Below, piece after piece: positions 7,111-42,057 of a DNA stretch of 50,279 bases. The notes under the pieces were generated by a model. It did not search any database. It was not told the origin of the DNA and was given only the letters and a program-made list of their open reading frames with translations. The stretch's first letter is position 1. Every line of letters begins with the position of its first letter. Location: IMG/VR virus record IMGVR_UViG_3300021964_000108, positions 1 through 50,279 of that record. One strand, given 5' to 3'. Source of the DNA: a virus. A program made the translations under genes and the position numbers.

Positions 7111-10100
7111 ATGGCTTTTGATTTATCAAGGCTCCGCACTGATCAGTTACAAAGATTAGCAAGCGTAGGTGGCGATCTCTCTCAACTCGAGACAGATGAG
7201 ATTGAGGGCTTATTGTCGTCCCAAGAAGACTTCAGTGACGTTGGCGCAGGGTTACAACGAGCAGGTGCAAGCTTGCAGTTGGGTCTTGCCGGTGCGCTTG
7301 GCTCAGAAGGCATGGCCGAATCAGCCATGCAGTCCCTCGAAGATGTCCAGAGACAATACACTCCAGACGTTCCTTCCTTCACAGATATCACAGGTCCCCT
7401 TTCGGGACTTGAGTACATCCAAGAACAACTCACTGCCTCAGCCCCACAGATGATCGCTCAGCTTGGAGCGGGTGCACTTGGTACACGTTTCGGTGGACCT
7501 CGAGCAGGTGTTGCGGCGGCTACTGGCGTAGGCACTCCGTTCTTTGCCGGTATGAACATCGAGCGGCAGATGGAAGAGCAAGGCATTGGCTTTGAAGATG
7601 CTCAGGTTGCTAAGGCGTATGGATTCGGCGTTGGTCAGGCGGCACTTGATGCCGCAATTGGTAGAACATTGGGTGTATTTGGGCCTAAAAAGGGTGCAGA
7701 AGAGATTGCCAAGGCCGCACAACAAGGTATGGCCAGACGCATTGGTGGTAAGTTTGTCGCAGGTGCGGCAGTGGAAGCGCCTACCGAAGCGGCACAGCAA
7801 GCATTAGAGATCATACAGGCTAACCCAGAGAAGCTTGCAGAGTTTGGACCAGAGGTTCGAGCGGAGCTCATGGAGGCCGCTGTCGCAGGTGGCTTGGTTG
7901 GTGGTGTAATCACTGCACCGACAGGCATCCCTAACCCACAAGATCCTGCGAAGCAGAGAAAAGAAGTAGCTGATGATCTGACTGCTCACCTCCAAGACGA
8001 GATGGCAGAGACTGCCAACATGGAAGGTATCGCGGCTCGCTTTGGTGGTCAGAAATTACTCACCAAGCAGGACTTTGAGCTCGAGGCGCAGGAACGCTTA
8101 GGCATTCCGTTCATTCCAGAAGAGCGTGCAGAGGCGGCGACAGATGATGTCATCGCAATGCCCGGTGATAAAGGGTTGCCCGAAACACCCCGCATCACAG
8201 ACCTCGAAGAAGACAGAACACCACAGTCAGACAAGTCTGGATCACCGATCACTCAAGCACAGAAGGCACTCGAAGAGCGTGGTCGCTTTGAGACGGCTAT
8301 CAATCGTTTCTATGACAACCTTCAGGCTGAAGAAGAGGCGGCTCCTGTTTCCCCTCTTATGTCTGGGTACGAGATCCCTCCAGCACAACGCAGACTTCCT
8401 CCCGGTGAAACCATCTATGCCGAAGGCACAGTTCAGGGCCGTTACGGAGAAGCCGTTCGAGACCCCGAAGCAATTCGGACAATGGACACCACGCCAGAAC
8501 AGATCCCTACAGTAGAGGGAGAGTTCGTTCCTGCTCAGCCCGCTCAGGCTCCAGAGACATTAGCACTCCCCACTCCCACTATTGAAGGCACGAGAGCTCT
8601 ACCTCGAGGCACTGGAGCAATCCAAGTGCCGCCAAGACCAAGCCAACGAGCTAACCTCATTGACCGCATAGCGGGCCTCACAGAATTAACAACAGGGGTT
8701 GCACCTCCTCCTGTCACAACAGACGAGAGTTTGTTGAGACTGCGTCGAGGTCTTGAGCTTGTTGATCCTTTCAGTGACGTAGAAGCACAGCGCCTACTCG
8801 ACAACTACACCAAGCAGACACAGGCAGGCAGAACAAGAGCGGCCACTAACGCCCGTAGAAAACTTGAGAAGTTATTAGTAGATCAGGGCTACACACCAGA
8901 AGGTGTGTCTCGAGCACTCAATAACATTGATGACACAGGACAATTACGCCTGTTCTCGAAGAGAAATGCCGCTGAGAACGCACAGAAAGCCCGAGACAAG
9001 GCGATTGCCGAAGCATACACTATGCCTACCATCGAGCTATTCAACGAGCGTGTAGGTGCTATACAGGGCCAGTTAAGAAAAGAGCTTGACCGCCTAGGGC
9101 TCAAGGATGTTGACCTGAATATGCAGGCACTCATCCGTCCAACCCCTGATTCACTGGCCGAAGGTGTGACCGATCAGGTTGCCTCTGGCCGTATCTCAAT
9201 CTCATTGGCGTCACAGATCTACGATCCAAGCATGACAGATGCTGATCTCAAGGCTCGCCTCCAAGAGGTGATGAACCACGAGATGATTCACGCCATGAAA
9301 ATGGCAGGCGTATTCAGTGACTCCGAGTATCAGACGCTAGTCAATGCCGCGAAGAAGCAGAAGTTTGTAGATCGTAATGGTAAGGAACGTAAGTTCACAT
9401 ACTTCCAGCGTGCCCGCGCACTGTACATGAACGACTCTGTGGTGGTTCAGGAAGAAGAAGCCGTTGCTGAATTGTTCCGTGACTGGGCGGCAGGACGCAA
9501 GAAGATTGGTGGCAAGCCACAGTCATTGCTCAACCGGGTTGTTAATTTCATCAAGGGCCTTGGTAAGTCACTCAGTGACAACGGGTTCAACAGTTCAGAT
9601 GATATCTTCCGTCGCATTCAGTCAGGAGAGATCGGAGGCCGAGACAGAAAAGGTGCAGTTGCACCTTCTAAGATGCACTCTCGAAGAGCCACTCCAAACT
9701 CCCCTGCATTCTATAACGCAACAGACCGCCAGATAGAGCAGTTAATTGACCGATGGGAATACCCAAGAGGCACTGTTGGTTACGCTGTCCGTATGCCTAT
9801 CGAGGACTTCATGTCCTTGACATATGCTATGGGCGAAGTCAGTAAGACCGACATGCGGAGAACAGCGAAAGAGTTCCTAGAAGATATGCCTTCCAATGAC
9901 AGGTCTGTCTTCTTAGATGGCGTTATCAGGGGTGTAGGTCAGGATCAAGAGATCCCAGATCAATACTTCAGAAGATTCGATCCGGAGAAGGTTGACTCGC
10001 AGAACTACATGGGCATCCCTTATCTTGAGTTAACTATTGACGAAGAGACTGGTGCCGTCCAAGTATTGAATCACGAGGGTAGACACAGGACTGCTTTAGC

Positions 10101-13100
10101 CGCAATCGATGGGGCGACAACAATCCCCGTTCAGGTTGAGTTCAAGGAGCCGTACAAGAGATGGGACACAGCCCGTCTATTTGGCGACATCCCTTCAGAT
10201 CAGCCGTTTGACTACGAAGACTTTGTTAAGTCCAGACCTGTTACACAGCAGTACTTTGGCAGAAGAATGGGTCTCAATGCTGAGCAAGAGGCAATGTTTG
10301 AGCGCACCCTTCCGAAGGGAGTGCCGTTCAACTTCCAGTACAGGGATCAGCTCAACGCATTGATCGGGCCGAAGTCTGATCCACTATTCCCAGATGACAC
10401 CAAAGGCACCCAACGCCTCTCTAAGAAGCTGAGCCTCAACGAGTGGTTAGGTAACTCTGCGATCCAGAATGATGTGTACCACGCAACATTCACCAGCTTC
10501 CCTGCGTTAGACCCGGACAAGACAGATGATGGTGCGGTCCATTTTGGTCCCAATAGGACCCAAGGGATTGAGCGCCTTGATGAGGTGGCTCGCTTCCAGA
10601 TCGTGCAAGAGTTGGAAGACGGCACGCCAATGTTCCCGCGAGTCATCACTGCCAAGATCAGAATGGAGAATCCACTGGTGGTTCCATTTGATCTAGGTAA
10701 CTGGGGCGATATCAACCTATGGAGGAGCGCACTCGAGCGCGGATCATTCGCATTCACTCAGTACGGAGCAGACCCAGAGACACTGCGCAGAGTGGTCACC
10801 GAAGACCCTGCATATCAAGAGATACTGGCCAAGCTCAAAGAGATGGAAGCCGGAAACAAAAGAAACCTTGAGAGACAGGGTGAAGACACAGACAGAATGA
10901 TGGCATATGACATTGTCGAGCCTTCTGATATCTGGCTTGTCATGGATGGCCTTGGTTACGATGGACTGATCTACAAAAACTTTGGTGAGACATCAACCGG
11001 AGAAGATTCCTATCTTGTCTGGAGTGCCCAGAACATCTACGTCAAGCAAGTTGATGACATTCCATACAGCGATATCTACTACGCTGACTACTACGGTGAC
11101 CCAAGAGAAGGGATGACCGAAGCGCAGATCGAAGCTCGAGCTACCCGTCCTATCCTAGGCGTCCAGTCTAAGTTCCTTGATGTCGAAGATGTTCGACGTA
11201 TGTCTCAGGACCCATCAGCATTCGCAGAGCGAAGCAGACAGTTCGCAGGTCAGGCAGGGACAGCTCCAATCGAAGACCCCGCAAGAATGTTTTCTCGCAG
11301 AGTCAGTCCAGTCAAGGCGGAATCAAACCCGTTTGAGATTGACCTTGGCGAGACAATCGTTCCCATCTATCCGGGAACGAGCAATGTCAGCGAAAGAAAG
11401 CCGGGGTCCAAGACAGTTGACGAAGCGATCCGTGAGATGTACGAGCGGTACGTTGCTGTCACAGGTAACACTGAGCCTCTTGAGTACAACGAAGAGAACA
11501 AAGAGATCATTGCTCGCAAGATGGCGACCGAAGCACTCAAGGCTTTGGAGTACGACAACAACGCTATCGGTTGGTACGATGAAAAGATCAGTGAAGCCAA
11601 GCGCATCCTCGCTGTCATTGAGCCACGAGCATTTGATACAGCAGAGCACGAAGCCGCATTCGATTACGCACTAGCGGTGACATCAAACGGCCAAGCGGTT
11701 ATTGACAACTTCCCTCTGGCACTTGATGCATTTGATTACTATCTCCGAACTGGCAGGTTCCCAGAGAATGAGTGGAAGGCCGGTGGTGAACGAGCTGGTG
11801 CCATGCGAAACGCATGGTCATTCTTTAACACGTATAACAGACTGTATGAAGAAGGTGCAGTTGAACTTTCTTTGTCAGAGTTCATGGACGCAGAGTTCGA
11901 CTTCAAGGAACTGCGCGACCGAGTCAAAGAGTTCAACAAAACATTCGGCACTAAGATTGCCGTGCCTTCCGGCGACCTTGTTGGTGCCAAGGTATACGGT
12001 AGCCGTTTACTAGGTCCCAAAATAGGACAAGGATTCTATCAGAACATTCGTGGAAACTTTGAGCCACTGACCGCAGACCTGTGGTGGATGCGGATGTGGA
12101 ACCGAATGACCAATGATCCGTTCAAGGCGAAGCCAAGCAAAGCCAAGATGGCAGAGCGCAGAGATGCAATCCGTCAGGAGATCAGGAATCCAACGAGCGA
12201 AGTCGAACGCCAAGTAATCAATGAGGCACTTGACTTAATCGGTGCCAAGGCAGGACAGGTTCGTTCGAATACAAAAGTTGACGAGCTGGCAACCGCCATC
12301 GCAAAACGATGGGAGCGGTACTTTGCAAACTACAAGAAGCAGAACGGTGTCAACCCAGAGAAGCCAAGCTTCTTTAATGTTGCACAGCGCCACGCCGAAT
12401 CTCTTGGTGACATCCCTGTAGCGGCTCCTCGCAATGGCAGAGAGAAGCAGTTCATGATTGAAACTGTGGACCGAGCCAAGCAGTTACTGTCAGAGCAAGG
12501 ACTGGATATAAATACAGCAGACTTCCAAGCCCTGCTGTGGTACCCTGAGAAGCGTTTGTTCAGGGCACTTGGTGTGAAGCCGGGCCGTGGCGAAGATAAT
12601 GATTACGTTGATGCGGCAATCTTTGCCGCAAAGCAAAGAGGAATACCAGATGCAAAAGTCGAAGAAGCACGCGCCGATTCAGATGTCAGACGAGGGTATG
12701 ATAGATCAGGTGCCGAAGGACAAGTTGGAAGCGTTGATCCTATCACTGGAGCCACTCGCTACTCCAAGAGGTACACAGCAGGACAGTCAGCAAGGCTTAT
12801 CGCCAACCGTGCAGGAGTTAATGGACAAGTTTGGAATGTCACAGGAGGAGGCACTACTGTACGAGGACTCGATGTAGTTCGCTCATTTGATGTTAGTAAT
12901 GAATACATCCCCACTTATGCAGAAGGGAACATCTCCACTCCCACAGTATATGAGCTAGCTCAGTCTCCTCAGGCGGCTCAAGAATTTGAAACAGCAATCA
13001 GAGCGGCAAGCGAAGCTAATCCGTTTGGCGCCGCTGTCTATGTGTACCCAGTACAGACAACAGAAAAAGAAACAGGCTACAGCGACATGCGTTTATTCAC

Positions 13101-16100
13101 TGTCGCTGATGGCACTGCTGGTTTCGCGTTAAAAGGAAATGACATTGTCAGCGTGTTCAACACTCCGGGCAATGGCTTAAAGAATGTCTCTAATGGATTT
13201 TTGCGATTGGCCATCGAGCAAGGTGGGCGAAAGCTTGATGCATTTGATACAGTTCTCCCGTACTTCTATGCCAACAATGGGTTCAAACCAATCACTAGAT
13301 TGGTCTGGGACGAGAAGCAGGCACCAGACAACTGGGATAAAGGACTGTTTAGCAAGTACAACAACGGTGAACCAGACGTTGTTTTCATGGCGTACAATCC
13401 AATCGCCACAGAGTACAAGCCTAACCAAGGTGAGTACGCGCTGAGTTATGCAGAAGCTGTAGCTAAGCAGGACGAAGCGGCAAGCAAGTACTCCAAGAGA
13501 TTTAGTGCAACTGCACCTTCTGGGTTTAACCTTGAAGAGGTTGTTGATCGACTGATCCAGACCGAGCCAGATACAAACCCAATCGGCAAGATGTGGGACC
13601 GCTGGGTACTTGGTAGAGTCGAGGGCGAAACACGGTGGGAAGCATTTACACGGAACGCAATCAACAGATTTATTCCGGGGTACATGTTAGACAACTATGT
13701 CAACGGAGAGATCTCAGATCCTGCGAACAGTGTGGGACGAGCCATGGAGCTTTCTCAGAACATGACCGGTAGAATCTGGGGTCTGTCAGAGTTGGGTGCC
13801 ATGCAGTTCGACAAGGACACAGGTACTATCTCTGTCATTGATGCTCCGGACAACATGGGACTGCGTCAGATCTTTGAGCCAATCGGTGAGCAGTACGAGA
13901 AAGAGTACTATGCCTACGCAATCACTCGCCGTGAGATCAAGCTTGCACAGCAAGGACGCAAGGGGTTCAAAAACCTATCGACCCAAGACGCAATGCGTGC
14001 TGTCGCAGAGTTCGAGCGCAAGTATCCGTTCTTCAAAGATGTCCATGACAACTACACCCGCTTCAACCAACGCATGGTTCAGATGGGTATCGACGCAGGC
14101 CTCATCACTAGAGAGCAGGGCGATGTATTCATGGATATGGATTACGTCCCTTACTACCGTTACGCCGAGGCACCAGAGGGTGTATCAGAGTTCTCTAAAG
14201 CAATGGCGGCTAAGGCTCATGCGTCACTGAAAGATCCGAACGTGTTCGAGAAAGAACTCGAAGGCGGAACCATTAAGCTTGGTGACATGTATGAGAACAT
14301 CACGCGCAACGCATCACTGATTGTCTCTGCCGCACTAAAGAACCACGCGATGCAGAAGACTGCTGACGCTCTTGATCAAGCAGAGAAGATGGGTGGACCC
14401 AAGACTTGGGGACGTAAGGCAGTCGAAGGTGAGACTGGCCAGATGATCACGTTCTATAAGAACGGCGAGAAGGTTCGGTACAAGATCGACGATCCCGCAC
14501 TATGGTCCGCTGTCTCAGGTTTGACCCAGAAACAAAAAGAGGGTTGGATAAAAGGGCTAGAGATAGTTGCAGGAGTCTTACGCTCAGGCGTCACACTCAG
14601 TCCCGGCTTTCAGTTAGCCAACTTATGGCGAGGCAAGATCGATGCGTATGTGAAGACAGGCATTGAGCCGCATCGTTTTGACAGGACGATCAAAGCGATC
14701 CGTGATGTGTACGCAGGCGACAAGGACGTAGAGCGGTTTAAGTTGGTTTCTGGAATGGGCGGATTCTTGTACGGTGCAGACTCCGAATCACTTGCTAAGA
14801 ATATTAAGCGTGGTTACCGCCTGAAAGATGGTGGCGGACCAGTCATGCAACAGATCGGCGACCGATTCATGCAGGGTGTGCAAGCTCTCGAGAAGACCGG
14901 TGAAGCATCTGAGATGGCGGAACGTATTGTCATCATGCGGAAGATGATGGAAAACGGCATGAGTGAGAAAGAAGCCATTTTCCAAGGGCTCAACCTTATT
15001 AACTTTGGACGCCGTGGCGCGGGCGGCAGTAACGTAATGTCTGCACTTGTTAACTTCTTAATCCCGACAGTGCCGTTCTTGAATGCCCGAATCCAAGGCC
15101 TATACAAGATGGCGGAAGATCCTAACATGCCGGGATCGGTGAGACAGCAGGCTCTTGTCGAGATGGCAGGGCGCGGTCTACTTGTCACCGCAGGATCAAT
15201 GGCCATGGCACTCCTTGCAATGCAAGACGAAGATCGTTGGGAAAACGAGACAGTCGTTGAGAAGGTGACTAACGACATCATCTATATTGGTGACTACAAG
15301 CTCCGTATTCCTAAGGCGTTTGAGATCGGTGCGATCTTTGGCACTATCCCAGTCATGGCTGTTGATGCGATTCGACAACAGGATGGATCTGACTTTGCAA
15401 CTGCGGCAGGGCATATCGTGTTGAGCACATTCGCATTCAACCCTGTGCCGCAAGGTCTTCTGCCAGTATTCGAGGTGATAGGAAACTACGACACATTTAG
15501 AGGAGCCCCCATCGAGGGCATCTCTTTGCAGAGGTTGCCTGAAGAGATGCGTGCCTACAGCTCAACCCCTGAGATATACAAGTGGCTGTCGCGCAATGGC
15601 GGGGCGATGATTGGACTGTCACCTGTGCAGATACAGCAGTTATTTGAGGGATACACAGGAACAATTGGTAGTAGCCTAATTGCTACAACTGATGTGATTG
15701 CAAGTGCAACTGGCGCCATACCCGAGAAGCCTGATGGGGTGTTTGGTAATGCGTTTGCTGATTCGCTAACGAATATCGCTGGGCTTAACCGGTTCATTCG
15801 TGAGGATGGCACTGGAGCATCACGCTTTGTGTCAGATTTCTATGCGCTGAAGCGCGATGTAGATCAGACATACACTGCAATTAGAGACGCCGCAACAGAT
15901 GGTAATCGAGCAGAGATTGACAAACTGCTTGGAGAGAAAGGCAAAGCAGTGGGCTTTAGGACCTACTTCAATGGGGTATCTCGACAGCTTACTGATGTGA
16001 ACAAGGCGATGGATGTTATCCGGAGAGATCCGAACATGAGCTCCTCCCAGAAGAAGGAAGAGCTCTTGCGTCTTAGGAAGTTAAAGGTTGAGCTGACTCG

Positions 16101-16143
16101 CAAGGTTGTGAAGACAGCTAAGCAGTCCGGATACTTTGATTAA
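7111..16143 (+). CDS. Giant polyvalent virion protein with peptidase, ParB-like, ART and LPD38-like domains (3010 aa)
   Basis: Probably packaged in the virion and ejected with DNA. Residues 60-200 are Gly/Ala-rich and membrane-active-looking. A zincin domain has HEMIH at 723-727, with a likely third ligand near E783. A ParB/Srx-like domain (HEGRHRTAL) lies near 988. An ADP-ribosyltransferase-like domain begins at VYHAT (about 1121), with HFG near 1140 and YDGLIY near 1290. QALLWYPEKRLF lies near 1810. A GNAT-like segment spans about 1990-2105. The C-terminus (about 2490-2800) matches large polyvalent protein-associated domain 38. Six hydrophobic-S-basic-basic motifs separate these parts. It starts behind AAGGGGG at 7100-7106. 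Domain calls are from motif memory, not searches. Confidence 0.8.
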   Translation: MAFDLSRLRTDQLQRLASVGGDLSQLETDEIEGLLSSQEDFSDVGAGLQRAGASLQLGLAGALGSEGMAESAMQSLEDVQRQYTPDVPSFTDITGPLSGLEYIQEQLTASAPQMIAQLGAGALGTRFGGPRAGVAAATGVGTPFFAGMNIERQMEEQGIGFEDAQVAKAYGFGVGQAALDAAIGRTLGVFGPKKGAEEIAKAAQQGMARRIGGKFVAGAAVEAPTEAAQQALEIIQANPEKLAEFGPEVRAELMEAAVAGGLVGGVITAPTGIPNPQDPAKQRKEVADDLTAHLQDEMAETANMEGIAARFGGQKLLTKQDFELEAQERLGIPFIPEERAEAATDDVIAMPGDKGLPETPRITDLEEDRTPQSDKSGSPITQAQKALEERGRFETAINRFYDNLQAEEEAAPVSPLMSGYEIPPAQRRLPPGETIYAEGTVQGRYGEAVRDPEAIRTMDTTPEQIPTVEGEFVPAQPAQAPETLALPTPTIEGTRALPRGTGAIQVPPRPSQRANLIDRIAGLTELTTGVAPPPVTTDESLLRLRRGLELVDPFSDVEAQRLLDNYTKQTQAGRTRAATNARRKLEKLLVDQGYTPEGVSRALNNIDDTGQLRLFSKRNAAENAQKARDKAIAEAYTMPTIELFNERVGAIQGQLRKELDRLGLKDVDLNMQALIRPTPDSLAEGVTDQVASGRISISLASQIYDPSMTDADLKARLQEVMNHEMIHAMKMAGVFSDSEYQTLVNAAKKQKFVDRNGKERKFTYFQRARALYMNDSVVVQEEEAVAELFRDWAAGRKKIGGKPQSLLNRVVNFIKGLGKSLSDNGFNSSDDIFRRIQSGEIGGRDRKGAVAPSKMHSRRATPNSPAFYNATDRQIEQLIDRWEYPRGTVGYAVRMPIEDFMSLTYAMGEVSKTDMRRTAKEFLEDMPSNDRSVFLDGVIRGVGQDQEIPDQYFRRFDPEKVDSQNYMGIPYLELTIDEETGAVQVLNHEGRHRTALAAIDGATTIPVQVEFKEPYKRWDTARLFGDIPSDQPFDYEDFVKSRPVTQQYFGRRMGLNAEQEAMFERTLPKGVPFNFQYRDQLNALIGPKSDPLFPDDTKGTQRLSKKLSLNEWLGNSAIQNDVYHATFTSFPALDPDKTDDGAVHFGPNRTQGIERLDEVARFQIVQELEDGTPMFPRVITAKIRMENPLVVPFDLGNWGDINLWRSALERGSFAFTQYGADPETLRRVVTEDPAYQEILAKLKEMEAGNKRNLERQGEDTDRMMAYDIVEPSDIWLVMDGLGYDGLIYKNFGETSTGEDSYLVWSAQNIYVKQVDDIPYSDIYYADYYGDPREGMTEAQIEARATRPILGVQSKFLDVEDVRRMSQDPSAFAERSRQFAGQAGTAPIEDPARMFSRRVSPVKAESNPFEIDLGETIVPIYPGTSNVSERKPGSKTVDEAIREMYERYVAVTGNTEPLEYNEENKEIIARKMATEALKALEYDNNAIGWYDEKISEAKRILAVIEPRAFDTAEHEAAFDYALAVTSNGQAVIDNFPLALDAFDYYLRTGRFPENEWKAGGERAGAMRNAWSFFNTYNRLYEEGAVELSLSEFMDAEFDFKELRDRVKEFNKTFGTKIAVPSGDLVGAKVYGSRLLGPKIGQGFYQNIRGNFEPLTADLWWMRMWNRMTNDPFKAKPSKAKMAERRDAIRQEIRNPTSEVERQVINEALDLIGAKAGQVRSNTKVDELATAIAKRWERYFANYKKQNGVNPEKPSFFNVAQRHAESLGDIPVAAPRNGREKQFMIETVDRAKQLLSEQGLDINTADFQALLWYPEKRLFRALGVKPGRGEDNDYVDAAIFAAKQRGIPDAKVEEARADSDVRRGYDRSGAEGQVGSVDPITGATRYSKRYTAGQSARLIANRAGVNGQVWNVTGGGTTVRGLDVVRSFDVSNEYIPTYAEGNISTPTVYELAQSPQAAQEFETAIRAASEANPFGAAVYVYPVQTTEKETGYSDMRLFTVADGTAGFALKGNDIVSVFNTPGNGLKNVSNGFLRLAIEQGGRKLDAFDTVLPYFYANNGFKPITRLVWDEKQAPDNWDKGLFSKYNNGEPDVVFMAYNPIATEYKPNQGEYALSYAEAVAKQDEAASKYSKRFSATAPSGFNLEEVVDRLIQTEPDTNPIGKMWDRWVLGRVEGETRWEAFTRNAINRFIPGYMLDNYVNGEISDPANSVGRAMELSQNMTGRIWGLSELGAMQFDKDTGTISVIDAPDNMGLRQIFEPIGEQYEKEYYAYAITRREIKLAQQGRKGFKNLSTQDAMRAVAEFERKYPFFKDVHDNYTRFNQRMVQMGIDAGLITREQGDVFMDMDYVPYYRYAEAPEGVSEFSKAMAAKAHASLKDPNVFEKELEGGTIKLGDMYENITRNASLIVSAALKNHAMQKTADALDQAEKMGGPKTWGRKAVEGETGQMITFYKNGEKVRYKIDDPALWSAVSGLTQKQKEGWIKGLEIVAGVLRSGVTLSPGFQLANLWRGKIDAYVKTGIEPHRFDRTIKAIRDVYAGDKDVERFKLVSGMGGFLYGADSESLAKNIKRGYRLKDGGGPVMQQIGDRFMQGVQALEKTGEASEMAERIVIMRKMMENGMSEKEAIFQGLNLINFGRRGAGGSNVMSALVNFLIPTVPFLNARIQGLYKMAEDPNMPGSVRQQALVEMAGRGLLVTAGSMAMALLAMQDEDRWENETVVEKVTNDIIYIGDYKLRIPKAFEIGAIFGTIPVMAVDAIRQQDGSDFATAAGHIVLSTFAFNPVPQGLLPVFEVIGNYDTFRGAPIEGISLQRLPEEMRAYSSTPEIYKWLSRNGGAMIGLSPVQIQQLFEGYTGTIGSSLIATTDVIASATGAIPEKPDGVFGNAFADSLTNIAGLNRFIREDGTGASRFVSDFYALKRDVDQTYTAIRDAATDGNRAEIDKLLGEKGKAVGFRTYFNGVSRQLTDVNKAMDVIRRDPNMSSSQKKEELLRLRKLKVELTRKVVKTAKQSGYFD
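9653..9664. repeat. Distributed palindrome copy (GTGCAGTTGCAC), intragenic
   Basis: Encodes G-A-V-A-P-S at residues 848-853 of the giant protein, immediately before the HSRR motif at 856-859 and so at a domain junction. Confidence 0.85.
11855..11866. repeat. Distributed palindrome copy (GTGCAGTTGAAC), intragenic
   Basis: Encodes G-A-V-E-L at about residues 1582-1586 of the giant protein. It falls inside the longest interval between junction motifs (1397 to 1884). Confidence 0.8.
13505..13516. repeat. Distributed palindrome copy (GTGCAACTGCAC), intragenic
   Basis: Encodes S-A-T-A-P-S starting at residue 2132, immediately after the YSKR motif at 2127-2130. It again marks a junction in the giant protein. 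Confidence 0.85.
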
Positions 16144-18577: not shown

Positions 18578-19218
18578 TACTTCGTCTCCTTGAGTTCGTT
18601 GGCTTTAGCTGTGAACGCTTCGTATACCCGCTTGTAGTTGTCGGGATCGAGGTTCTCGAGGTGCTCGATTGGTTGCTTATTGATCGCCCAATACTGGCGT
18701 AAGCTGTCGAGCGTTTTATCATTACCTTGAATAAAGGTAAGAATGATTTCGGCAACAGCAGTCAAGTCAGTGACCTGCTCCTTGTTACCTTCGGTATCCT
18801 GCACCGAGTAAGACACAGGTGCATCAGGATTCATGGTCTCGCCTTGGTATATGTACATACCTAATCCCATATAGGCTAGGCACTTGACAAGACACCGTTG
18901 ATAGGCGGAGTTCACTGCAAAGCAGTCAGGGTTATGGACCGGCTTGTTCTTGAAATCAAGAACCGGAAGCATCTCAGTGACATCCTCAAGGACAGTGCCC
19001 GAATCAGATTCAATCCAGACCCGAACACCAACCATCTCTGAGCCATCGCTCATCTTTGAGGAGCCCAACTTCTCAAAGCGAGCTTGTGGATACAGCTCCT
19101 TGAGAGTCTTCCAAGCCCAAGCCCAAGACAGGTATGTGAACCCGTTCTTGACCTCTGTGTGGGCGTTACAGTCAATGACAGACAGCGTCTCCCAGACTGA
19201 CTTAGATTTTGTTGGCAT
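18577..19218 (-). CDS. DUF1071 family, probable single-strand annealing protein (213 aa)
   Basis: The N-terminal domain has NGFTYLSWAWAWKTLKELYP, the hallmark of DUF1071 phage proteins. These are generally treated as Rad52/Sak-like annealing proteins because of their operon partners. ATG 19218 (GAAGGAAC upstream) is chosen over a further upstream ATG at 19257. It lies between an SSB-like gene and, one gene upstream, a Cas4/RecB-like exonuclease, the usual set of a phage recombination system. The C-terminal 70 residues are a separate helical tail. Confidence 0.7.
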   Translation of the reverse strand: MPTKSKSVWETLSVIDCNAHTEVKNGFTYLSWAWAWKTLKELYPQARFEKLGSSKMSDGSEMVGVRVWIESDSGTVLEDVTEMLPVLDFKNKPVHNPDCFAVNSAYQRCLVKCLAYMGLGMYIYQGETMNPDAPVSYSVQDTEGNKEQVTDLTAVAEIILTFIQGNDKTLDSLRQYWAINKQPIEHLENLDPDNYKRVYEAFTAKANELKETK

Positions 19219-19915
19219 ACTTTGTTCCTTCGAAAATAAACTTGTATAGCTCTGCACCCATCTTCCTAGGCTGAATCCTGTAAGGCAGTCTAGTCATCTC
19301 GTAATCTGAGATCTCTCCAGTCTTAGCCATGTCTCGTATGTGTCTGTACTTCAGCCCACCACTTTTCCTGATACGGCTAGCAACGATCTTGGCCACCTGA
19401 ATCACCCGCTCTTCGGATATTCTTGGGCCATGCTTGCGTGGCTCTATTTGCCTGCTGATCACAAAATCTAGATCAGGATTGGATTCATCAGTTTTATTTA
19501 TCGCCTTGTTGACAACCTCGACTGGCTTTAACCAGTCAACATCAGGAAGGCACTCCTGCTTTGGAGTCTCCAATCGCGGCTCCACAATCCGATCACTATT
19601 CAGTGACAGACCCTCCTTTGCAAGGGCATCCTCTATTTCTAGCAAGCTTTTCTTCCCGAGATTTGGAAGTTTCATCAGCCCAATGTGCGTCAATCGGGTC
19701 AGCTCCTCCACTGTGTAAACACCCTCCGCCATGAGGCAGTTTATAGACCTCTGTGTGATAGGGAGTGTATTAATATGCCGACCAAGCTTGCCGGTTTCCG
19801 CGTCCATCTTTCTTAGAAGATCGGTTAGCACTTGTTTATGGTAAGAGTGGATGTTAAGTAGTTCATCAACCCCCCTTAACTCATCACTGATGAGCTTCTT
19901 CATTGCATCAGACAT
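19202..19915 (-). CDS. Protein with an RNA polymerase alpha C-terminal-like domain (237 aa)
   Basis: Residues 50-103 match the host RNA polymerase alpha CTD, which binds promoter UP elements and activators. The two helix-hairpin-helix blocks QRSINCLMAEG and LPNLGKKSLLEIED are present. Residues equal to the E. coli DNA contacts are all kept: R56 (R265), N59 (N268), C60 (C269), G87 (G296), K89 (K298), S90 (S299), E93 (E302). The N-terminal 45 residues are helical. Residues 150-237 form a second, basic domain of unknown type. ATG 19915 has AAGGAGACGAG upstream. It has no alpha N-terminal domain, so it is not a subunit copy. It probably regulates transcription or binds A/T-rich DNA. Confidence 0.8.
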   Translation of the reverse strand: MSDAMKKLISDELRGVDELLNIHSYHKQVLTDLLRKMDAETGKLGRHINTLPITQRSINCLMAEGVYTVEELTRLTHIGLMKLPNLGKKSLLEIEDALAKEGLSLNSDRIVEPRLETPKQECLPDVDWLKPVEVVNKAINKTDESNPDLDFVISRQIEPRKHGPRISEERVIQVAKIVASRIRKSGGLKYRHIRDMAKTGEISDYEMTRLPYRIQPRKMGAELYKFIFEGTKYANKI

Positions 19916-20792
19916 TTCTCGTCTCCTTATGCTGATCACAGAACTGAGCGACACCACAGAAGTTCTCACCGCAACGTGTGTATTCTCCTAAGCGACACTC
20001 GATATAAAGTGCATCTGCACCTTTTTGGTTGTTGATAAAGAGCTCTGCTTCACGCTCTGAATCAAACAGCTTCACCGCAGACTTGCGGCCCTTCTTCATG
20101 ACCGCCCAACGTGTAGGCTTAGCCCAACGCTCTGCATCCGTACAGAGAGGGAGCGGATCAGTGAAGTCAAAATTCTGCTGACACCCTTGATGCGCAGTGA
20201 TGCGCTTGCCAATGTAGTCCTGACGCTCCTCAAACGTCCATGAAGGAACATCAATGACTTGGATATTGGCTTGGGGGTAGCCAGCAGAAACCTTTGCTTG
20301 CCGCCGAGACCAGTCTCTGACAATGGCGACAATGCGAAGATCGTTGACAGGCATATCCTTGTTCTTCTGTACAAGGTATGCATAGCAATTCAGTTGTCTT
20401 TCCCACTCAGGCTTGTCGTTCATGACAGCCCAAGAAGAACAGACCTTGTAATCCATGATGGTGATTGAGCCATCGGGCTCGTACTTCTGCACATCGATGG
20501 CGCCCGAAAGAGTCCACCCGAACATCTCAGTAAAGAGACGCTCTTCATAGACCTCATCAGGCAAAGGCTCAGATTGCTCAAGGATATGATGACATGCAGT
20601 CCCAAGAAGGGAGTAGGTCATGTCGGTAACATCCATCTGCAATTGATCGGCGTGCAGACTCCTCAGCATCGATATGCGAGGAGAGTCAATCAGCGTGGTG
20701 ACACTGATGTCAGCCTTGCCTTTCGAATACTTGTCACTCTTTGCACAGCGAATGAACTGTTCTGGCACAGCGTGGTTATTTGTGATAATCAT
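19908..20792 (-). CDS. Cas4/RecB-like PD-(D/E)XK exonuclease, Fe-S type (294 aa)
   Basis: Motifs in order: G64-T-A-C-H68-H69, D100 in LSGAIDV, D114-Y-K116, and Q133...Y137. These are the RecB-type nuclease core. The C-terminus has cysteines C266, C274, C279 and C285, in the place where Cas4/AddB proteins hold a 4Fe-4S cluster. It probably resects DNA ends to feed the DUF1071 annealing protein downstream. It is the first gene of the leftward block. GGGAGACATT precedes ATG 20792, and the divergent RusA gene starts 53 bases away. Confidence 0.85.
   Translation of the reverse strand: MIITNNHAVPEQFIRCAKSDKYSKGKADISVTTLIDSPRISMLRSLHADQLQMDVTDMTYSLLGTACHHILEQSEPLPDEVYEERLFTEMFGWTLSGAIDVQKYEPDGSITIMDYKVCSSWAVMNDKPEWERQLNCYAYLVQKNKDMPVNDLRIVAIVRDWSRRQAKVSAGYPQANIQVIDVPSWTFEERQDYIGKRITAHQGCQQNFDFTDPLPLCTDAERWAKPTRWAVMKKGRKSAVKLFDSEREAELFINNQKGADALYIECRLGEYTRCGENFCGVAQFCDQHKETRNV
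20009..20020. repeat. Distributed palindrome copy (GTGCATCTGCAC), intragenic
   Basis: Falls in the minus-strand exonuclease gene, encoding G-A-D-A on that strand. It sits in the C-terminal part just before the cysteine cluster. Confidence 0.8.
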
Positions 20793-25818: not shown

Positions 25819-26940
25819 TCAGGCCACTTGGGCCCGAACGACATCACCGAATGGCGCTTCATCAGCGTCAGTTGAAACCCACAGCACCGGATACTCAGGT
25901 GCAGTGTCAGGGAAGTCCCAGACATGCAGGTCAGTGAAGTAAATGAATGAGTCACACTCGAGTCCACGCTCCTCGACTAGATCAAACACAGGTGACACAG
26001 CAGTGCCGCCCCGTCCAGTAGAGTTGAGTGTCTCGATGGACTCCCCTTGCCCATACTCAGTCACAGACTGAATGGAAGAGTCACAGCCGATGACCGTGAC
26101 CGACTTGGGTTGCATGTCCTCAGCGACAGCGTTGATCTCACCAAGGAACTGAGAGAGCTCAGCATCGGAGACCGAACCAGATGTGTCCACACCAATGACC
26201 ACATGCCCTGCACCGTAGTGATCCACAGAAGGCATGTAGATGCCATAGGTCCCGTAGAACTTACGATTAGGACGGCGCCATGTGTAGTCGTCTGGCTGAT
26301 CACCGCCAATGAATGTCCGGAGCTTGTCGCGCCAGTCAACCTTGGGCTTGGAGATCTCCTCGATCAAACCGTCCACACCGGCAGGCAGTTTGCCCTGCAT
26401 CTTGGCAGTGGCGTGTGCCTGTAACACCTTGACCCCGATGTCCGCTGAGAGAGCCTCTATGTCGGCCTCAGACATGCTTGTGCCATCATCGTTGGCAGGG
26501 GTGACGATCTCGCCGAAGCCCCAACCATCTTCTGGCTCAGGAGTATCCTGAAGCAGGCGAGGGTAGATTGCCTCAGCAGACATGCCTCTGAACTGCCCAT
26601 CGAGCAGGCGCTTCTCAGGAAGTTGCAAGCCCGAATCAATGACGATCTGGTTGATCGCATAGTCAGTGGCCATATTCCAGACCTTGTGATCACGCTCACC
26701 AATACGCAGAGGATGCTGTAGTGCAACGTGCATGACTTCATGTGCGATGACACCCTCGATCTCCTCGATGGTGTACTGATCAACGAACTCTGGATTGAAG
26801 CGCACTGACTTGCCATCAGTGCACATGGTTGGGATCTCACTGTCCTCGATGAAAGGCAAGGACATGGCAAGTGAGCCAAAGAAAGGCTGACGCAACATCA
26901 GGTGCGTCTTAGCTCTCGCGATTGTTTTGGTTGCCTCCAT
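25819..26940 (-). CDS. VWA-domain protein with zincin-like N-terminus, DUF2201-type (373 aa)
   Basis: Partner of the MoxR-type ATPase encoded two genes upstream. The N-terminal domain has H67-E-V-M-H71, the HExxH metallopeptidase-like motif of DUF2201 proteins. The C-terminal VWA domain begins near 245 with the metal site motif DTSGS, then GGTAVS and the acidic YFTDL. MoxR-VWA pairs act as chaperone-like machines that insert metals or remodel complexes. The phage target is unknown. GGAGG precedes ATG 26940, which lies inside the end of the 70-aa gene. Confidence 0.8.
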   Translation of the reverse strand: MEATKTIARAKTHLMLRQPFFGSLAMSLPFIEDSEIPTMCTDGKSVRFNPEFVDQYTIEEIEGVIAHEVMHVALQHPLRIGERDHKVWNMATDYAINQIVIDSGLQLPEKRLLDGQFRGMSAEAIYPRLLQDTPEPEDGWGFGEIVTPANDDGTSMSEADIEALSADIGVKVLQAHATAKMQGKLPAGVDGLIEEISKPKVDWRDKLRTFIGGDQPDDYTWRRPNRKFYGTYGIYMPSVDHYGAGHVVIGVDTSGSVSDAELSQFLGEINAVAEDMQPKSVTVIGCDSSIQSVTEYGQGESIETLNSTGRGGTAVSPVFDLVEERGLECDSFIYFTDLHVWDFPDTAPEYPVLWVSTDADEAPFGDVVRAQVA

Positions 26941-27121
26941 GAAGCACCTCCGAAACTCCGACTTTGTTTAACGCAAAGCAGATGTACCGCGCTGTATCAC
27001 GGTCAACTGCCTCGCACCATAGATCACGACTGTGACAGACAACATGACCGGCCTCAATGACTTCAATGTCAGTGAGGAAGATCAGGTTGCCTTCTAGCTC
27101 AAACTGTTGATGCGAACTCAC
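26909..27121 (-). CDS. Small protein between MoxR and VWA genes (70 aa)
   Basis: It overlaps the end of the ATPase gene by 4 bases and the start of the VWA gene by 32 bases, so all three are coupled. The product is mixed alpha/beta with three Cys (CHSRDLWCEAVDRDTARYIC). Its position suggests an adaptor or substrate of the MoxR-VWA pair. No family is recognised. Confidence 0.6.
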   Translation of the reverse strand: MSSHQQFELEGNLIFLTDIEVIEAGHVVCHSRDLWCEAVDRDTARYICFALNKVGVSEVLHGGNQNNRES

Positions 27122-28137
27122 AGAACCAACTCCGCACCGCCAGAGAGAATCCAGTCACGCAACGCAGGCTCCTTCTTGAGACCCTCGTAGCGGGACATCG
27201 CAGACTTGACAGCGAACGCGCTGAACTCCTGCTGAGGGATCCGCTTGAGGTACGCCATGAAGTTGGCTGAGTTGGTCTTGTTCACACGGTATGCGATACC
27301 TGCGCACACGGCATACATGACCGAAGGGTCCTGAGGGATTGGAGCATTGACTGGATCCTTGAGTGGAAGCTCAGGATCAGGAAGCTCGCGATACACAGAC
27401 AGGAAAGCCTTGAAGTCGGAAGCCGCACCTAGGCCAACCTGACCCATGATCGCCTCCATCTCAGCGCCTTCATCAAGACCCCAGTTGAGGATGCCTGACA
27501 CCTTCTCCCATGACCGTGGTGATGGGCAGGCCTTGGCGTCCTTGTCGAACTTGGAGAGCTGATCCGGCTTGAAGCGCAGGAAGCCTGTGACCTCTGGACG
27601 CACACCATGGGCATTCATGTAGTGCAAAGCGTCATCGAGGTTGGGCTCGATCTCGAGGTGCAGTAGGCGGTCCTTGAGATGAGTGGGCATGGCGTTAGTG
27701 CCTGCACGGTGTGACAGGTCATTACCGGCACAGACAATGGACCATCCATCACCCAACTTATGCTCGCCAATGCGGCGCTCATTCACAAGTTGAGCGGCCA
27801 CGTTTTGATTGGCCACTGGGGCCTGTGGTAGCTCATCACAGAAGAGAATGCCCTCGCCTTCTAGTGGAAGGTATGCGGGGCGAGCCCGAAACATTTTACC
27901 GTCCTTCAAGATAGGGAAGCCTGCAAGCTCACCGGCGTCATATTGAGCAAAGATCACTACGCGACACTCCATGTCGAGGTGCTCAGCAATTTGCTCAACC
28001 GCTGATGTTTTACCTGTACCTGCAACACCCCAAAGCATTGGAGTGACGTACTGGCTAGAGCGAGCGCCTTTAGCCGCGATGGCTTGATTAGACTTAATCG
28101 ATGCGAGAACGATCTCGCGTGCAGTAGATAGATTCAT
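27118..28137 (-). CDS. MoxR-type AAA+ ATPase (339 aa)
   Basis: ATP-driven remodelling protein. Walker A is GVAGTGKT at 37-44. Walker B is ILFCDE ending at D101-E102. A sensor-1-like strand (SIVCAGND) follows near 135, and an arginine-finger region lies near RAGTNAMPTHLKDR. ATG 28137 is preferred to an earlier ATG because GGAG lies 7 bases upstream. The leader holds a palindrome copy and two hairpins. It heads the three-gene MoxR-VWA set. Confidence 0.88.
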   Translation of the reverse strand: MNLSTAREIVLASIKSNQAIAAKGARSSQYVTPMLWGVAGTGKTSAVEQIAEHLDMECRVVIFAQYDAGELAGFPILKDGKMFRARPAYLPLEGEGILFCDELPQAPVANQNVAAQLVNERRIGEHKLGDGWSIVCAGNDLSHRAGTNAMPTHLKDRLLHLEIEPNLDDALHYMNAHGVRPEVTGFLRFKPDQLSKFDKDAKACPSPRSWEKVSGILNWGLDEGAEMEAIMGQVGLGAASDFKAFLSVYRELPDPELPLKDPVNAPIPQDPSVMYAVCAGIAYRVNKTNSANFMAYLKRIPQQEFSAFAVKSAMSRYEGLKKEPALRDWILSGGAELVL

Positions 28138-28165
28138 GATGTGTCTCCTCAGACAAATGAAAAAA

Positions 28166-28177
28166 GTGCAAATGCAC
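28166..28177. repeat. Distributed palindrome copy (GTGCAAATGCAC)
   Basis: Lies in the leader of the AAA gene. On the coding strand it is followed by TTTTTTC and, 18 bases on, the ribosome site. Confidence 0.85.
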
Positions 28178-28234: not shown

Positions 28235-28822
28235 CTATAAACCAAAGTTCTTTTTACAGACAGGACCAATGCCTAGCTCGACTGACTCAGGGTCAGTGAG
28301 CTCGCGGCCACAGCATGCACAGTCTCCTGTATCACGCCCGTACCGCACAGCAGTGCCCAATGGATCCTCAGCAAGATGGTACACAGGATCGATCATGTCG
28401 TCCCGAACACCCTTGCCTCGAAAGAAGTCCCCAGTTGGTGAGACCTTGCCAAGGTATTCGCCATCGCGATCCTTGACGTACAGGAACCCTGCATTGTGTG
28501 AGCTCTCACCGGCAGGATAAACCTTGACCGCACCTGCTCGAATGATCGGGCGCTTCAGTCCATTGGACTTGGCTGTCTCGAACACTTTGAACAGAGGGGC
28601 AAAGGCATTGCCGACAGAGGCGTCAGCTTGCGATCCCTTGATGATCTTCTCGACTGCTGAGATCTGACCATCGGTGAGCGAGCCAAACTTGTTGAGATTG
28701 TGTCTCAGAGAGAACCTGAAGTCGTTTTTCTCCTGCACCTTCAACCACTCCCATACAGGACGATTGGAGTCGCGCAAGTTTGCAAACGCAGGGACATCAT
28801 TGAAAAGTTGATCAATGTTCAT
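28235..28822 (-). CDS. Zinc-ribbon protein, DUF6011-like C-terminus (195 aa)
   Basis: The N-terminal 110 residues are helical and polar. A beta-rich part then resembles a small nucleic-acid-binding fold (AGFLYVKDRDGEYLGKVSP). The C-terminal segment CACCGRELTDPESVELGIGP followed by VC is the zinc-binding tail seen in DUF6011 phage proteins. GAGGAAATCGCC precedes ATG 28822, directly after a hammerhead ribozyme. It probably binds nucleic acid; no enzyme motif is seen. Confidence 0.65.
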   Translation of the reverse strand: MNIDQLFNDVPAFANLRDSNRPVWEWLKVQEKNDFRFSLRHNLNKFGSLTDGQISAVEKIIKGSQADASVGNAFAPLFKVFETAKSNGLKRPIIRAGAVKVYPAGESSHNAGFLYVKDRDGEYLGKVSPTGDFFRGKGVRDDMIDPVYHLAEDPLGTAVRYGRDTGDCACCGRELTDPESVELGIGPVCKKNFGL

Positions 28823-28838: not shown

Positions 28839-28893
28839 TGGGTTTCGGCCTGCCATGGCCATCATCAGTGCACCGGCATCAGGTGCAGACCCA
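28839..28893 (-). ncRNA. Hammerhead ribozyme HHR-4, type III
   Basis: On the minus strand, stem III pairs 28893-28889 with 28843-28839 (UGGGU/ACCCA). C17 is 28888. Stem I is 28887-28882 with 28874-28869 (UGCACC/GGUGCA). The core CUGAUGA is 28868-28862. Stem II is GGCC 28860-28857 with GGCC 28850-28847, followed by GAA at 28846-28844. One extra U (28861) lies between the core and stem II, a variation tolerated in some natural hammerheads. Cleavage is predicted between 28888 and 28887, in the leader of the 195-aa gene. Confidence 0.85.
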
Positions 28894-28909
28894 CAAGGGG
28901 GAAGCGGCA

Positions 28910-29527
28910 TCAAGCCGCCGCCTCCTCGAGTGCCGCAAGCGTGTCAGAGATCGCATCAGCGTTGGCGTCAGCCTGAGCCTGTGCGGCCTCCTCTGCCTGC
29001 TTGGCTTCATCAAGCTCGCGAACCAGTTCCTCGAACCGGACACGATCATCAGCGTCGAGCTCCACAAACTTCTTGGCGAGGTTCAGGACATCATCGACTG
29101 GCGCCTTGAACTTGCCTTTGATCTTGGACTCAGTGTCCAGACCTTCACGGTGCAGAGCGACAGCAACCTGACCGAAAGCACCATCGTGGTCCTGAGCGCT
29201 GACAGTCAGCAACTCAGGCATGACCCGCAAGAGCCCGTTGGTGTTCTCTGCGTAGCGCTTGACCGAAGCAGACGACACACCGGCCTCAGAGAGCTGATCG
29301 CGCAGTGCAGTCATGACAGTCACAGGCAGGCCCTGCTTCTTGCCACGGGTTGTGAGCTTGACGCCAGAGAGAGCAAGGTCAGTCAAGATGTGTGTGTACA
29401 CCTCAACCTTCTTGCCTTCCATCACCTCGCGGACTTCTTTGCCGCGATTTTTCAAGCCCGAAACATCACCATCGAGCTTTTCAATAGTGGCGCCAGAAGT
29501 AAGAGTGAAGTTGATTTTAGTAGCCAT
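28910..29527 (-). CDS. Hypothetical protein (205 aa)
   Basis: ATG 29527 follows GAGGAGACTATC. Residues 1-25 are beta-like (INFTLTSGATIEKLDG), residues 35-150 helical, and the end is an Ala/Glu/Asp-rich coiled-coil tail. No motif is recognised. Ribozymes flank the gene on both sides, so its mRNA would be released as a single unit with short untranslated ends. Confidence 0.6.
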   Translation of the reverse strand: MATKINFTLTSGATIEKLDGDVSGLKNRGKEVREVMEGKKVEVYTHILTDLALSGVKLTTRGKKQGLPVTVMTALRDQLSEAGVSSASVKRYAENTNGLLRVMPELLTVSAQDHDGAFGQVAVALHREGLDTESKIKGKFKAPVDDVLNLAKKFVELDADDRVRFEELVRELDEAKQAEEAAQAQADANADAISDTLAALEEAAA

Positions 29528-29551
29528 GATAGTCTCCTCAATTGACTAAGT

Positions 29552-29614
29552 GATCCTGTCTCATCAGTGCCGGTAGGATCGGTATCCGGCAGACCCGCAA
29601 GAGCGGGTTTCGAC
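29552..29614 (-). ncRNA. Hammerhead ribozyme HHR-3, type II
   Basis: The molecule is open at stem II (GUC 29614-29612 with GAC 29560-29558). GAA is 29611-29609. Stem III is ACCCGC 29608-29603 with GCGGGU 29598-29593, capped by UCUU. C17 is 29592. Stem I is UGCCGG 29591-29586 with CCGGCA 29573-29568. CUGAUGA is 29567-29561. Loop I bases 29580-29575 can pair with 29557-29552 (GAUCCU/AGGAUC), a pseudoknot. The first base of stem II is the last base of the stop codon TAG of the 86-aa gene. Cleavage is predicted between 29592 and 29591. Confidence 0.9.
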
Positions 29615-29874
29615 TATGCTTGAGTGATGCCCTCAGTGATGTAGATGAGGTTGAGCTTGTTGACCAGATCAGCTTTGTAGTCAGCACGGGCGATGACACG
29701 GCTGAAGCCATGCTCATTGCGAATCGAATCATCGCGTGCAATCCAACCAGAAGCGATCTGAAGCACAGTGATGTGCTCAGCACCTTTCACAACCCATTCG
29801 GCTGAGTCAGTGCCCATGCCGTTACCGCGCCAGACAGTTGGGCGAGTCTTGGTCAGCTTGATGTAGTTTTTCAT
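29614..29874 (-). CDS. Hypothetical protein (86 aa)
   Basis: ATG 29874 follows GAGGAAACTGTT. The product starts with beta strands and Trp residues (RPTVWRGNGMGTDSAEWVVK) and then alternates strand and helix, suggesting one small compact domain. No motif is recognised. HHR-2 and HHR-3 lie on either side, so a unit of about 340 nt (29931-29592) carries this gene alone. Confidence 0.6.
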   Translation of the reverse strand: MKNYIKLTKTRPTVWRGNGMGTDSAEWVVKGAEHITVLQIASGWIARDDSIRNEHGFSRVIARADYKADLVNKLNLIYITEGITQA

Positions 29875-29894
29875 AACAGTTTCCTCAATTGATT

Positions 29895-29954
29895 GGCCTG
29901 TCTCATCAGTGGCAGGAGGCCGTATCTGCCAGACGCCCCGTGGGGCGTTTCGAC
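29895..29954 (-). ncRNA. Hammerhead ribozyme HHR-2, type II
   Basis: Same plan as HHR-3 with different stems. Stem II is GUC 29954-29952 with GAC 29902-29900. GAA is 29951-29949. Stem III is ACGCCC 29948-29943 with GGGCGU 29938-29933, capped by CACG. C17 is 29932. Stem I is UGGCAG 29931-29926 with CUGCCA 29915-29910. CUGAUGA is 29909-29903. Loop I GGCCU (29921-29917) can pair with AGGCC (29899-29895). The stop codon TAG of the 75-aa gene again runs into stem II. Cleavage is predicted between 29932 and 29931. Confidence 0.9.
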
Positions 29955-30181
29955 TATGCGTGGGCGTTCTTTGCTCGCTCTGCGATCCCCCTGACCTTCA
30001 TGACTGTGTCGCCGTGGTTCTCGCAACCCAACATGATCTGGAGGCATTCCCATTTTGCTGATCTGCTTGTTGAGTAGGCACGCTTCAGCGACTGCTTGGT
30101 CACCATTGAGCCCACGTTCTCATCGCGGCAGATTGATTCATAAATGGCTAGGATTTTTGTAACTGTGATTGTCTGGTTCAC
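29954..30181 (-). CDS. Hypothetical protein (75 aa)
   Basis: Starts at GTG 30181 behind GAGGAAATAGTC, which follows directly on HHR-1. The product is helical and basic (KQSLKRAYSTSRSAKWECLQ) and may be a small nucleic-acid-binding protein. It is the first gene of the ribozyme-punctuated series. No family is recognised. Confidence 0.55.
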   Translation of the reverse strand: MNQTITVTKILAIYESICRDENVGSMVTKQSLKRAYSTSRSAKWECLQIMLGCENHGDTVMKVRGIAERAKNAHA

Positions 30182-30194
30182 GACTATTTCCTCA

Positions 30195-30248
30195 ATGTGT
30201 TTCGCCGATACTACGGCTCGTCAGTCAGGCTGATTGCCTGAGACACAT
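30195..30248 (-). ncRNA. Hammerhead ribozyme HHR-1, type III
   Basis: Stem III is AUGUGU 30248-30243 with ACACAU 30200-30195 (6 bp). C17 is 30242. Stem I is UCAGGC 30241-30236 with GCCUGA 30230-30225, loop AAUCA. The core CUGACGA is 30224-30218. Stem II is GCCG 30217-30214 with CGGC 30207-30204, loop UAGUAU. GAA is 30203-30201. All invariant hammerhead positions are met, including the GUC cleavage triplet. Cleavage is predicted between 30242 and 30241, 60 bases before the first gene of the operon. Confidence 0.92.
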
Positions 30249-41466: not shown

Positions 41467-41492
41467 AGGGGCCTTCGGGCCCCTTTTCTTTT
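41467..41492 (+). terminator. Strong terminator after the capsid gene
   Basis: AGGGGCC-TTCG-GGCCCCT (7 bp stem, UUCG loop) followed by TTTTCTTTT. It limits transcription into the tail genes; partial readthrough or a new start beyond it is needed. Confidence 0.93.
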
Positions 41493-41504
41493 CCTGACAG
41501 AAAA

Positions 41505-41516
41505 GTGCAAATGCAC
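41505..41516. repeat. Distributed palindrome copy (GTGCAAATGCAC)
   Basis: Lies between the capsid terminator and the ribosome site of the next gene. A bound factor here could restart transcription. Confidence 0.88.
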
Positions 41517-41547
41517 ATTCTGACACTTGCCACGACAGGAGATTCTC

Positions 41548-42057
41548 ATGGCTAATACCACATTTTCAGGTCCAGTCCGGTCCGAAAGCACTTTCAAAAC
41601 GATCAGCAAGAACACAACAACAGGTACAATCACTGAAGTATCAACTCTTGGTGGAGCTCCTGTTGAGCTAACTGATGCTGATGTTTCTCTCACAAACGCG
41701 GCGCATAGCGGAAGAGTTATCGTTGTTCCTGCTATCACTGCGAATCGTACAGTGACACTTCCATCGCCTGTTGCAGGCTCTACCTTTAAAATCATCTATG
41801 GTGGTGCGGCGACAGAAACAGAAAACCTAATCATTGATACGGGGTCTGATACAAACTTCTATATCGGTGGTGTCCAGCACCTCGACACAGATGCAGATAA
41901 TGTTGCTGTTTACTCAAATGGTAGCTCCAACTCAATCCTTACTCTGGTAGATTTTGGTGTAATGGAAATCAATATCGTTGCAAAGGACTCCACCAATTGG
42001 TATGTGTGGGGCAACGTAATTTCAGCTACAGTCCCAACATTTACTGATCAGCCATAA
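41548..42057 (+). CDS. Beta-rich virion protein (169 aa)
   Basis: ATG 41548 follows ACAGGAGATTCTC and is preferred to an ATG seven codons earlier. The product is rich in Thr, Ser, Gly and Val with few charges, as in head decoration or fibre-like beta-sandwich proteins. It begins a series of three similar proteins. No family is recognised. Confidence 0.6.
   Translation: MANTTFSGPVRSESTFKTISKNTTTGTITEVSTLGGAPVELTDADVSLTNAAHSGRVIVVPAITANRTVTLPSPVAGSTFKIIYGGAATETENLIIDTGSDTNFYIGGVQHLDTDADNVAVYSNGSSNSILTLVDFGVMEINIVAKDSTNWYVWGNVISATVPTFTDQP

Follow-up and report, generated by a model that had tools for sequence, protein, structure and literature searches.

Four Hammerheads Precede Four Successive Genes of a Phage Operon

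The window, i.e., the whole 50,279-nucleotide stretch of viral DNA analyzed here (IMG/VR record IMGVR_UViG_3300021964_000108), carries four hammerhead ribozymes (H1 to H4) on its minus strand, one ahead of each of four successive small genes. Read leftward, the operon comprises a leader, H1, gene 1, H2, gene 2, H3, the "CC" gene, H4, a gene encoding a DUF6011 protein, a palindrome with a T-run, and genes encoding a MoxR ATPase and a VWA protein, with the hammerhead types following one another as III-II-II-III. The features are listed in transcript order.

30195..30248, minus strand: H1, type III-like hammerhead in the operon leader; RF00008, 41.0 bits, E = 5e-6, below the cut-off of 48.5; predicted cut 30242/30241
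29954..30181, minus strand: gene 1, 75 aa, GTG start; ORF with a GAGGAA ribosome site; weak PHROG match only
29892..29954 (core 29900-29954), minus strand: H2, type II hammerhead with pseudoknot tail; RF02276, 42.1 bits, above the cut-off of 37; predicted cut 29932/29931
29614..29874, minus strand: gene 2, 86 aa; ORF with a ribosome site; ortholog in the related locus L003
29550..29614 (core 29558-29614), minus strand: H3, type II hammerhead with pseudoknot tail; RF02276, 37.9 bits, above the cut-off of 37; predicted cut 29592/29591
28910..29527, minus strand: gene 3, the CC gene, 205 aa; homologs in 67 loci among those searched, some being copies of one contig
28888..28926, minus strand: strong hairpins immediately 5' of the predicted H4 cut; the 45 nt preceding it fold with z -2.5
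28839..28893, minus strand: H4, type III-like hammerhead; RF00008, 34.9 bits, E = 3e-4, below the cut-off of 48.5; predicted cut 28888/28887
28235..28822, minus strand: gene 4, 195 aa; C-terminal DUF6011 domain (PF19474, phrog_4046)
28160..28177, minus strand: possible terminator, the palindrome GTGCATTTGCAC followed by a T-run; from the sequence and a palindrome search
27118..28137, minus strand: MoxR-type AAA ATPase (phrog_1297, 9e-74); likely start at 28137, chosen by its ribosome site
25819..26940, minus strand: VWA/metallopeptidase-like partner of the ATPase (PF13203 and PF09967)

The MoxR ATPase gene itself has no hammerhead in front of it. An earlier note on this DNA had placed the four hammerheads in consecutive gaps; this holds for H2, H3, and H4, which lie between genes, but H1 is found in the leader before the first gene. 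Its other statements on the anatomy were borne out. A start codon with a GAGGA-type ribosome site follows the end of each ribozyme by 13 to 30 nt, within the roughly 40 bases claimed, and recomputing the predicted cuts returned the same positions and the same single-gene units of 310, 340, and 704 nt. If transcription ends at the T-run, the downstream remainder would be a fourth unit, again with one gene, of roughly 730 nt; the palindrome and T-run at 28160..28177 were not flagged by the terminator pattern scan.

Rfam and a strict descriptor, which required the whole core and all three stems in any of the three permutations, agree on four complete minus-strand hammerheads in the places first proposed. 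All four have CUGANGA, GAAA, and the anticipated C at the cleavage site, here within a GUC triplet, and all contain the full hammerhead core (C3 U4 G5 A6 N7 G8 A9, G12 A13 A14, A15.1-U16.1, and H17). The covariance-model search that had been suggested as a check divided the set, with two of the four, not all of them, below threshold. H2 and H3 exceed the curated RF02276 cut-off, keep the pseudoknot that pairs loop I with the 3' tail, and show no essential difference from that family. H1 and H4 keep type III topology and a complete core, H4 having one surplus U between A9 and stem II, but since they score below the RF00008 cut-off they were filed as type III-like by structure and not as curated members. 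In the 19 kb searched with Rfam, they were the next best matches after H2 and H3, and the best chance-like match had an E-value of ~1; low-scoring matches, e.g., mir-BART17 and snoR143, were set aside as chance. Over both strands of the 50 kb window, the strict descriptor returned H1 to H4 and nothing else, while 2000 dinucleotide shuffles of the window gave a mean of 0.04 matches and a maximum of one. The stems had been described as fully different, which fails for H2 and H3, as these share core-side stem II and part of stem III. Each of these two begins at the final base of the upstream TAG stop codon, so that stem II opens with the G of that codon.

Covariation and Recurrence in Related Phages

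Covariation was scrutinized in 13 type II hammerheads from the window clade and Roseobacter phage CRP-7, aligned with MAFFT blind to structure. In this alignment, 96.1% of cells pair and 49 cells hold changes on both sides, versus 12.7 after shuffling (matched in 0 of 500 shuffles). Both-sided changes occur in 12 of the 20 pairs (again 0 of 500 shuffles), and pairing fell to 32 to 45% when the partners were shifted by one to three bases. The loop I-to-3'-tail pseudoknot, already known for type II hammerheads (PMC3088659) and formed in H2 by GGCCU and AGGCC, covaries in four of its five pairs in the same 13 sequences. Across the 184 distinct type II hammerheads among the matches listed, the longest loop-tail complement averaged 3.95 bases, compared with 2.58 when tails were permuted. 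For the individual elements, stem II of H1 has both-sided changes in the related loci L003 and L012, stem I of H3 has a single both-sided change relative to L003, and H4 is conserved in L003. The minimum-energy fold of H4 is the hammerhead; that of H1 differs from the hammerhead, which is its centroid fold.

Loci surrounding the ATPase gene were taken from viral contigs, bacterial genomes, and phage records. With the two copies of the window excluded, the descriptor gave 65 sense matches, 0 antisense matches, and 0 in shuffles, some loci repeating one contig. The arrangement, for which a search of related phages had been proposed, recurs in L003, L012, and L013, where four to six are found upstream of the MoxR-ATPase gene. 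L003, whose ATPase is 90% identical, has five (III-II-II-II-III) and one gene unit more than the window, L012 has six (III-II-II-II-II-III), and L013 has four. Three type III hammerheads each were found in L018 and L020, and one or two of type I, as called by the descriptor, in many marine contigs. Types II and III of the relatives were confirmed by Rfam; type I was assigned by the descriptor only, as RF00163 and RF02275 did not recognize these elements, most of which have an extra base after A9.

The hammerhead type at a given boundary differs between relatives. Before the CC gene it is type II in the window clade, type III in L018 and L020, and type I in another clade. The types thus track three clades, which on the ATPase tree requires at least two type changes at this boundary, and rampant type switching there was rejected. 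At the DUF6011 boundary, type III is present in the window and L003, and type II in L012 and L013. Many relatives have a plain hairpin without a hammerhead at the CC-gene boundary, so the ribozyme is not required.

An alternative is that the hammerheads are passengers of gene-plus-ribozyme cassettes with little function of their own. The gene content between ribozymes varies, L003 having one cassette more than the window, and in the wider set of matches listed many ribozymes are fused with a stop codon in a way that suggests joint copying of gene and ribozyme. Against passengers stand the strongly covarying stems and pseudoknot, the intact cores, and the retention of three different permutations at one boundary, and we give this explanation little credence. 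That real hammerheads occupy consecutive gaps and would cut the message into one-gene units finds good support in the anatomy, in the covariation, and in the recurrence among related phages.

Weaker elements were also observed near these loci. In L009, an AT-rich phage, hammerhead-like elements at 3568, 4893, and 5918 have a UGUGUG loop I and either altered cores or a mismatched stem II; they stand before other genes of the same operon and are possibly decayed or variant ribozymes. The L005 record (G002) has two sub-threshold type II hammerheads (12733-12796 and 13968-14031, minus strand) beyond the fetched ATPase region.

Position Relative to Stop Codons, Start Codons, Hairpins, and Promoters

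Among the matches listed, mostly pattern-selected, 125 of 184 type II hammerheads start -4 to +3 nt from the upstream stop codon. These matches do not amount to a census, and the pattern scan, which accepted a type II stem II only if it read GUC/GAC, favored TAG stops at this offset. Only 13 of ~1561 non-ribozyme GAAAC sites in the same sequences lie equally near a stop codon (138 of 1745 with the ribozymes counted in). The median distance from the cut to the next start codon, again among the matches listed, is 42 nt for type I, 57 nt for type II, and 67 nt for type III.

Cleavage by types I and II would leave the stem III hairpin at the 3' end of the upstream RNA, whereas type III has no hairpin of its own there. 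The strong hairpins at 28888..28926 would form the 3' end of the mRNA upstream of H4. Within this operon family, type III hammerheads located after a gene have a strong hairpin just before the cut (z -2.5 to -5.3), namely H4 and those of L003, L013 at 6392, L018 (twice), and L008 at 3867. Strong pre-cut hairpins also occur at L008 2963 and in the L003 leader. None was found in the leaders of the window, L012, L018, L020, or L250, and the type III cuts of the unrelated contigs L174 and L254 lack one; the promoter-proximal hammerheads of L012 and L013 have a GC-rich hairpin farther upstream instead.

In L012 (TTGACC-17-TATACT) and L013 (TTGATG-17-TATAAT), only a few bases lie between the end of a sigma-70-like promoter and the hammerhead; on cleavage, the transcript would thus lose just its first nucleotides and gain a different 5' end. 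These loci bear on the possibility that end chemistry is the purpose, with hairpin-bearing 5'-OH mRNAs resisting 5'-end-dependent decay and intergenic gaps being merely where such ends are most often needed. Because H1, which separates nothing, and the promoter-proximal hammerheads, which mainly alter the 5' end, both fit a 5'-OH role, this explanation keeps some weight. We nevertheless consider it unlikely: The promoter cases are only two and are related to each other, and type I leaves the downstream RNA without a hairpin yet occupies the same boundary. A promoter at hammerheads is not supported as a general rule, given 5 promoter-like sites versus 2.8 expected for 222 ribozymes among the matches listed.

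Proposed Transcript Processing and Its Precedent

We propose that the four hammerheads punctuate the leftward operon, most likely by cutting its message into single-gene pieces. Membership in a self-cleaving family points to cleavage at H1 to H4, and their position suggests cistron separation together with protection of RNA ends. Each hammerhead would fold and cut once while the RNA is made. H1, located before the first gene, would trim the 5' end of the leader and separate no two genes, and H2, H3, and H4 would part the cistrons. Downstream pieces would carry a 5'-OH, to which types II and III would add a terminal stem I hairpin ~40 to 70 nt before the start codon; upstream pieces would end in a 2',3'-cyclic phosphate behind the stem III hairpin (H2 and H3) or a separate hairpin (H4). 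The outcome would be single-gene mRNAs with decay and yield set individually. Where type II overlies a stop codon, the terminating ribosome would cover the GAAA strand, and cleavage could, speculatively, be coupled to translation.

Two ribozymes flanking a gene would excise a unit that bears both a 5'-OH and a 2',3'-cyclic phosphate, exactly the ends needed if such units were joined into circular mRNAs. Circularization from such ends is known for retrozymes and viroid-like RNAs. However, Perreault et al. 2011 sought spliced or circular products and found none (PMC3088659), and no RNA ligase was recognized in the scanned subset of window proteins, making circular mRNAs scarcely credible here. 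Punctuation into single-gene mRNAs has a precedent. The earlier note knew of no phage operon punctuated in this way, and this part of its reading falls, whereas the part concerning hammerheads in gaps and one-gene units fits the anatomy, covariation, and recurrence described above. Perreault et al. 2011 reported prophages in which single genes or short blocks are flanked by several hammerheads, and proposed that these process long phage transcripts into single-gene mRNAs (PMC3088659). Their prophage examples include Agrobacterium tumefaciens, with a triple array around ardA, Azorhizobium caulinodans, and Clostridium scindens; three arrangements were tested, the triple array cleaved both in vitro and in Escherichia coli, and of 18 consensus hammerheads tested 14 were active and 4 inactive (PMC3088659). 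As in those clusters, several same-strand hammerheads flank single genes of one phage operon in the window, and the arrangement is therefore of a known kind, not unprecedented. The window differs in having four hammerheads in successive gaps, the order III-II-II-III, a MoxR-ATPase operon, and relatives with up to six, while the largest array named in the text of Perreault et al. has three (PMC3088659).

Theta ribozymes of gut phages are likewise phage-borne self-cleaving RNAs used in RNA maturation, but they have an HDV-like fold and lie beside tRNAs (PMC10879173), whereas the window hammerheads sit between protein genes. Near Mu-like phage genes, hammerhead and twister ribozymes are enriched, as they also are in one another's vicinity; the reasons for this, and for hammerhead gene associations in general, are given as unknown (PMC10085705, citing earlier work for the enrichment), and the purpose of bacterial and phage hammerheads is regarded as an open question (PMC6155905).

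Hammerhead Arrays in Other Phages

A pattern scan of viral contigs, with at least 120 matching stretches, revealed arrays in unrelated operons, the largest among the matches listed being nine hammerheads in L250 and eight in L196, followed by arrays of five (three contigs), four (three contigs), and three (five contigs). Many of these array members were confirmed by Rfam. RDJL Phi 1, RHph_Y60, R6L, and Tedan, portal-protein kin of L250, had no hammerheads in the stretches read, and 297 genomes around Pseudochrobactrum, with few candidates scored per genome, returned two type II matches.

Searching with H2 as the query led to Streptomyces phages. In the isolate Marav, Rfam gave thirteen type II matches, eleven of them above the cut-off; of the 13 gaps that measure 50 nt or more in its annotated leftward part, hammerheads occupy 11. 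The isolate Triumph has ten, eight above the cut-off, and the classical phage R4 has nine, all above the cut-off. These phages resemble the window in carrying multiple hammerheads between leftward genes but are unrelated to it, have type II only, and lack annotation of the ribozymes in their GenBank records. In R4 (L302), annotated gp60.1, gp67.1, and gp75.1 largely coincide with type II hammerheads (3763-3846, 6126-6218, and 9074-9175) and are thus probably not real genes. Two type II hammerheads lie head to tail within one gap of Marav (L299; 13556-13690).

Taken with the window, these phages lead us to lean toward arrays being a general form of phage-operon punctuation. Up to nine to thirteen hammerheads per region would be set against the stop codon and ~40 to 70 nt before the next start, in any permutation per boundary and with 3' hairpins added for type III, and gene regions such as that of R4 would be resolved into single-gene 5'-OH mRNAs. 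In the literature searched, mostly open-access papers, we found no description of arrays on this scale, of a conserved operon with changing permutations, of the stop-codon rule, or of R4-type arrays. New here are the four to six hammerheads per MoxR-ATPase operon, the occurrence of types I, II, or III at one boundary, the usual abutment of type II on the upstream stop codon, and, beyond this operon, unrelated metagenomic phages with arrays of eight or nine as well as R4, Triumph, and Marav with nine, ten, and thirteen Rfam matches. Conserved arrays in a definable operon, together with nine or more hammerheads in a cultured S. coelicolor phage, open the question of hammerhead purpose to direct experiment. 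If this is confirmed, ribozymes would in some phages take over much of the early-mRNA processing otherwise done by nucleases and terminators.

Other Elements in the Window

The palindrome GTGCANNTGCAC occurs at 17 places between 677 and 41505 with at most one mismatch, 9 being exact among the matches listed, where 2.4 would be expected and none of 100 shuffles exceeded 7; spacing is mostly 1.6 to 3.6 kb. It is also enriched in L003, L012, and L013 and not in L020 or L047, and it may be a repressor, partition, or terminator element. The minus strand at 19202-19969 encodes a possible regulator of host transcription, 255 aa long and containing an RNA polymerase alpha C-terminal domain (PF03118, 6.8e-16). 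On the plus strand, a Mu-gpT-DE RNA (RF03012, 54.1 bits) lies at 41492-41550, just downstream of a Mu gpT-like capsid gene, and a 3010-aa protein with an LPD38 domain is encoded at 7111-16143.
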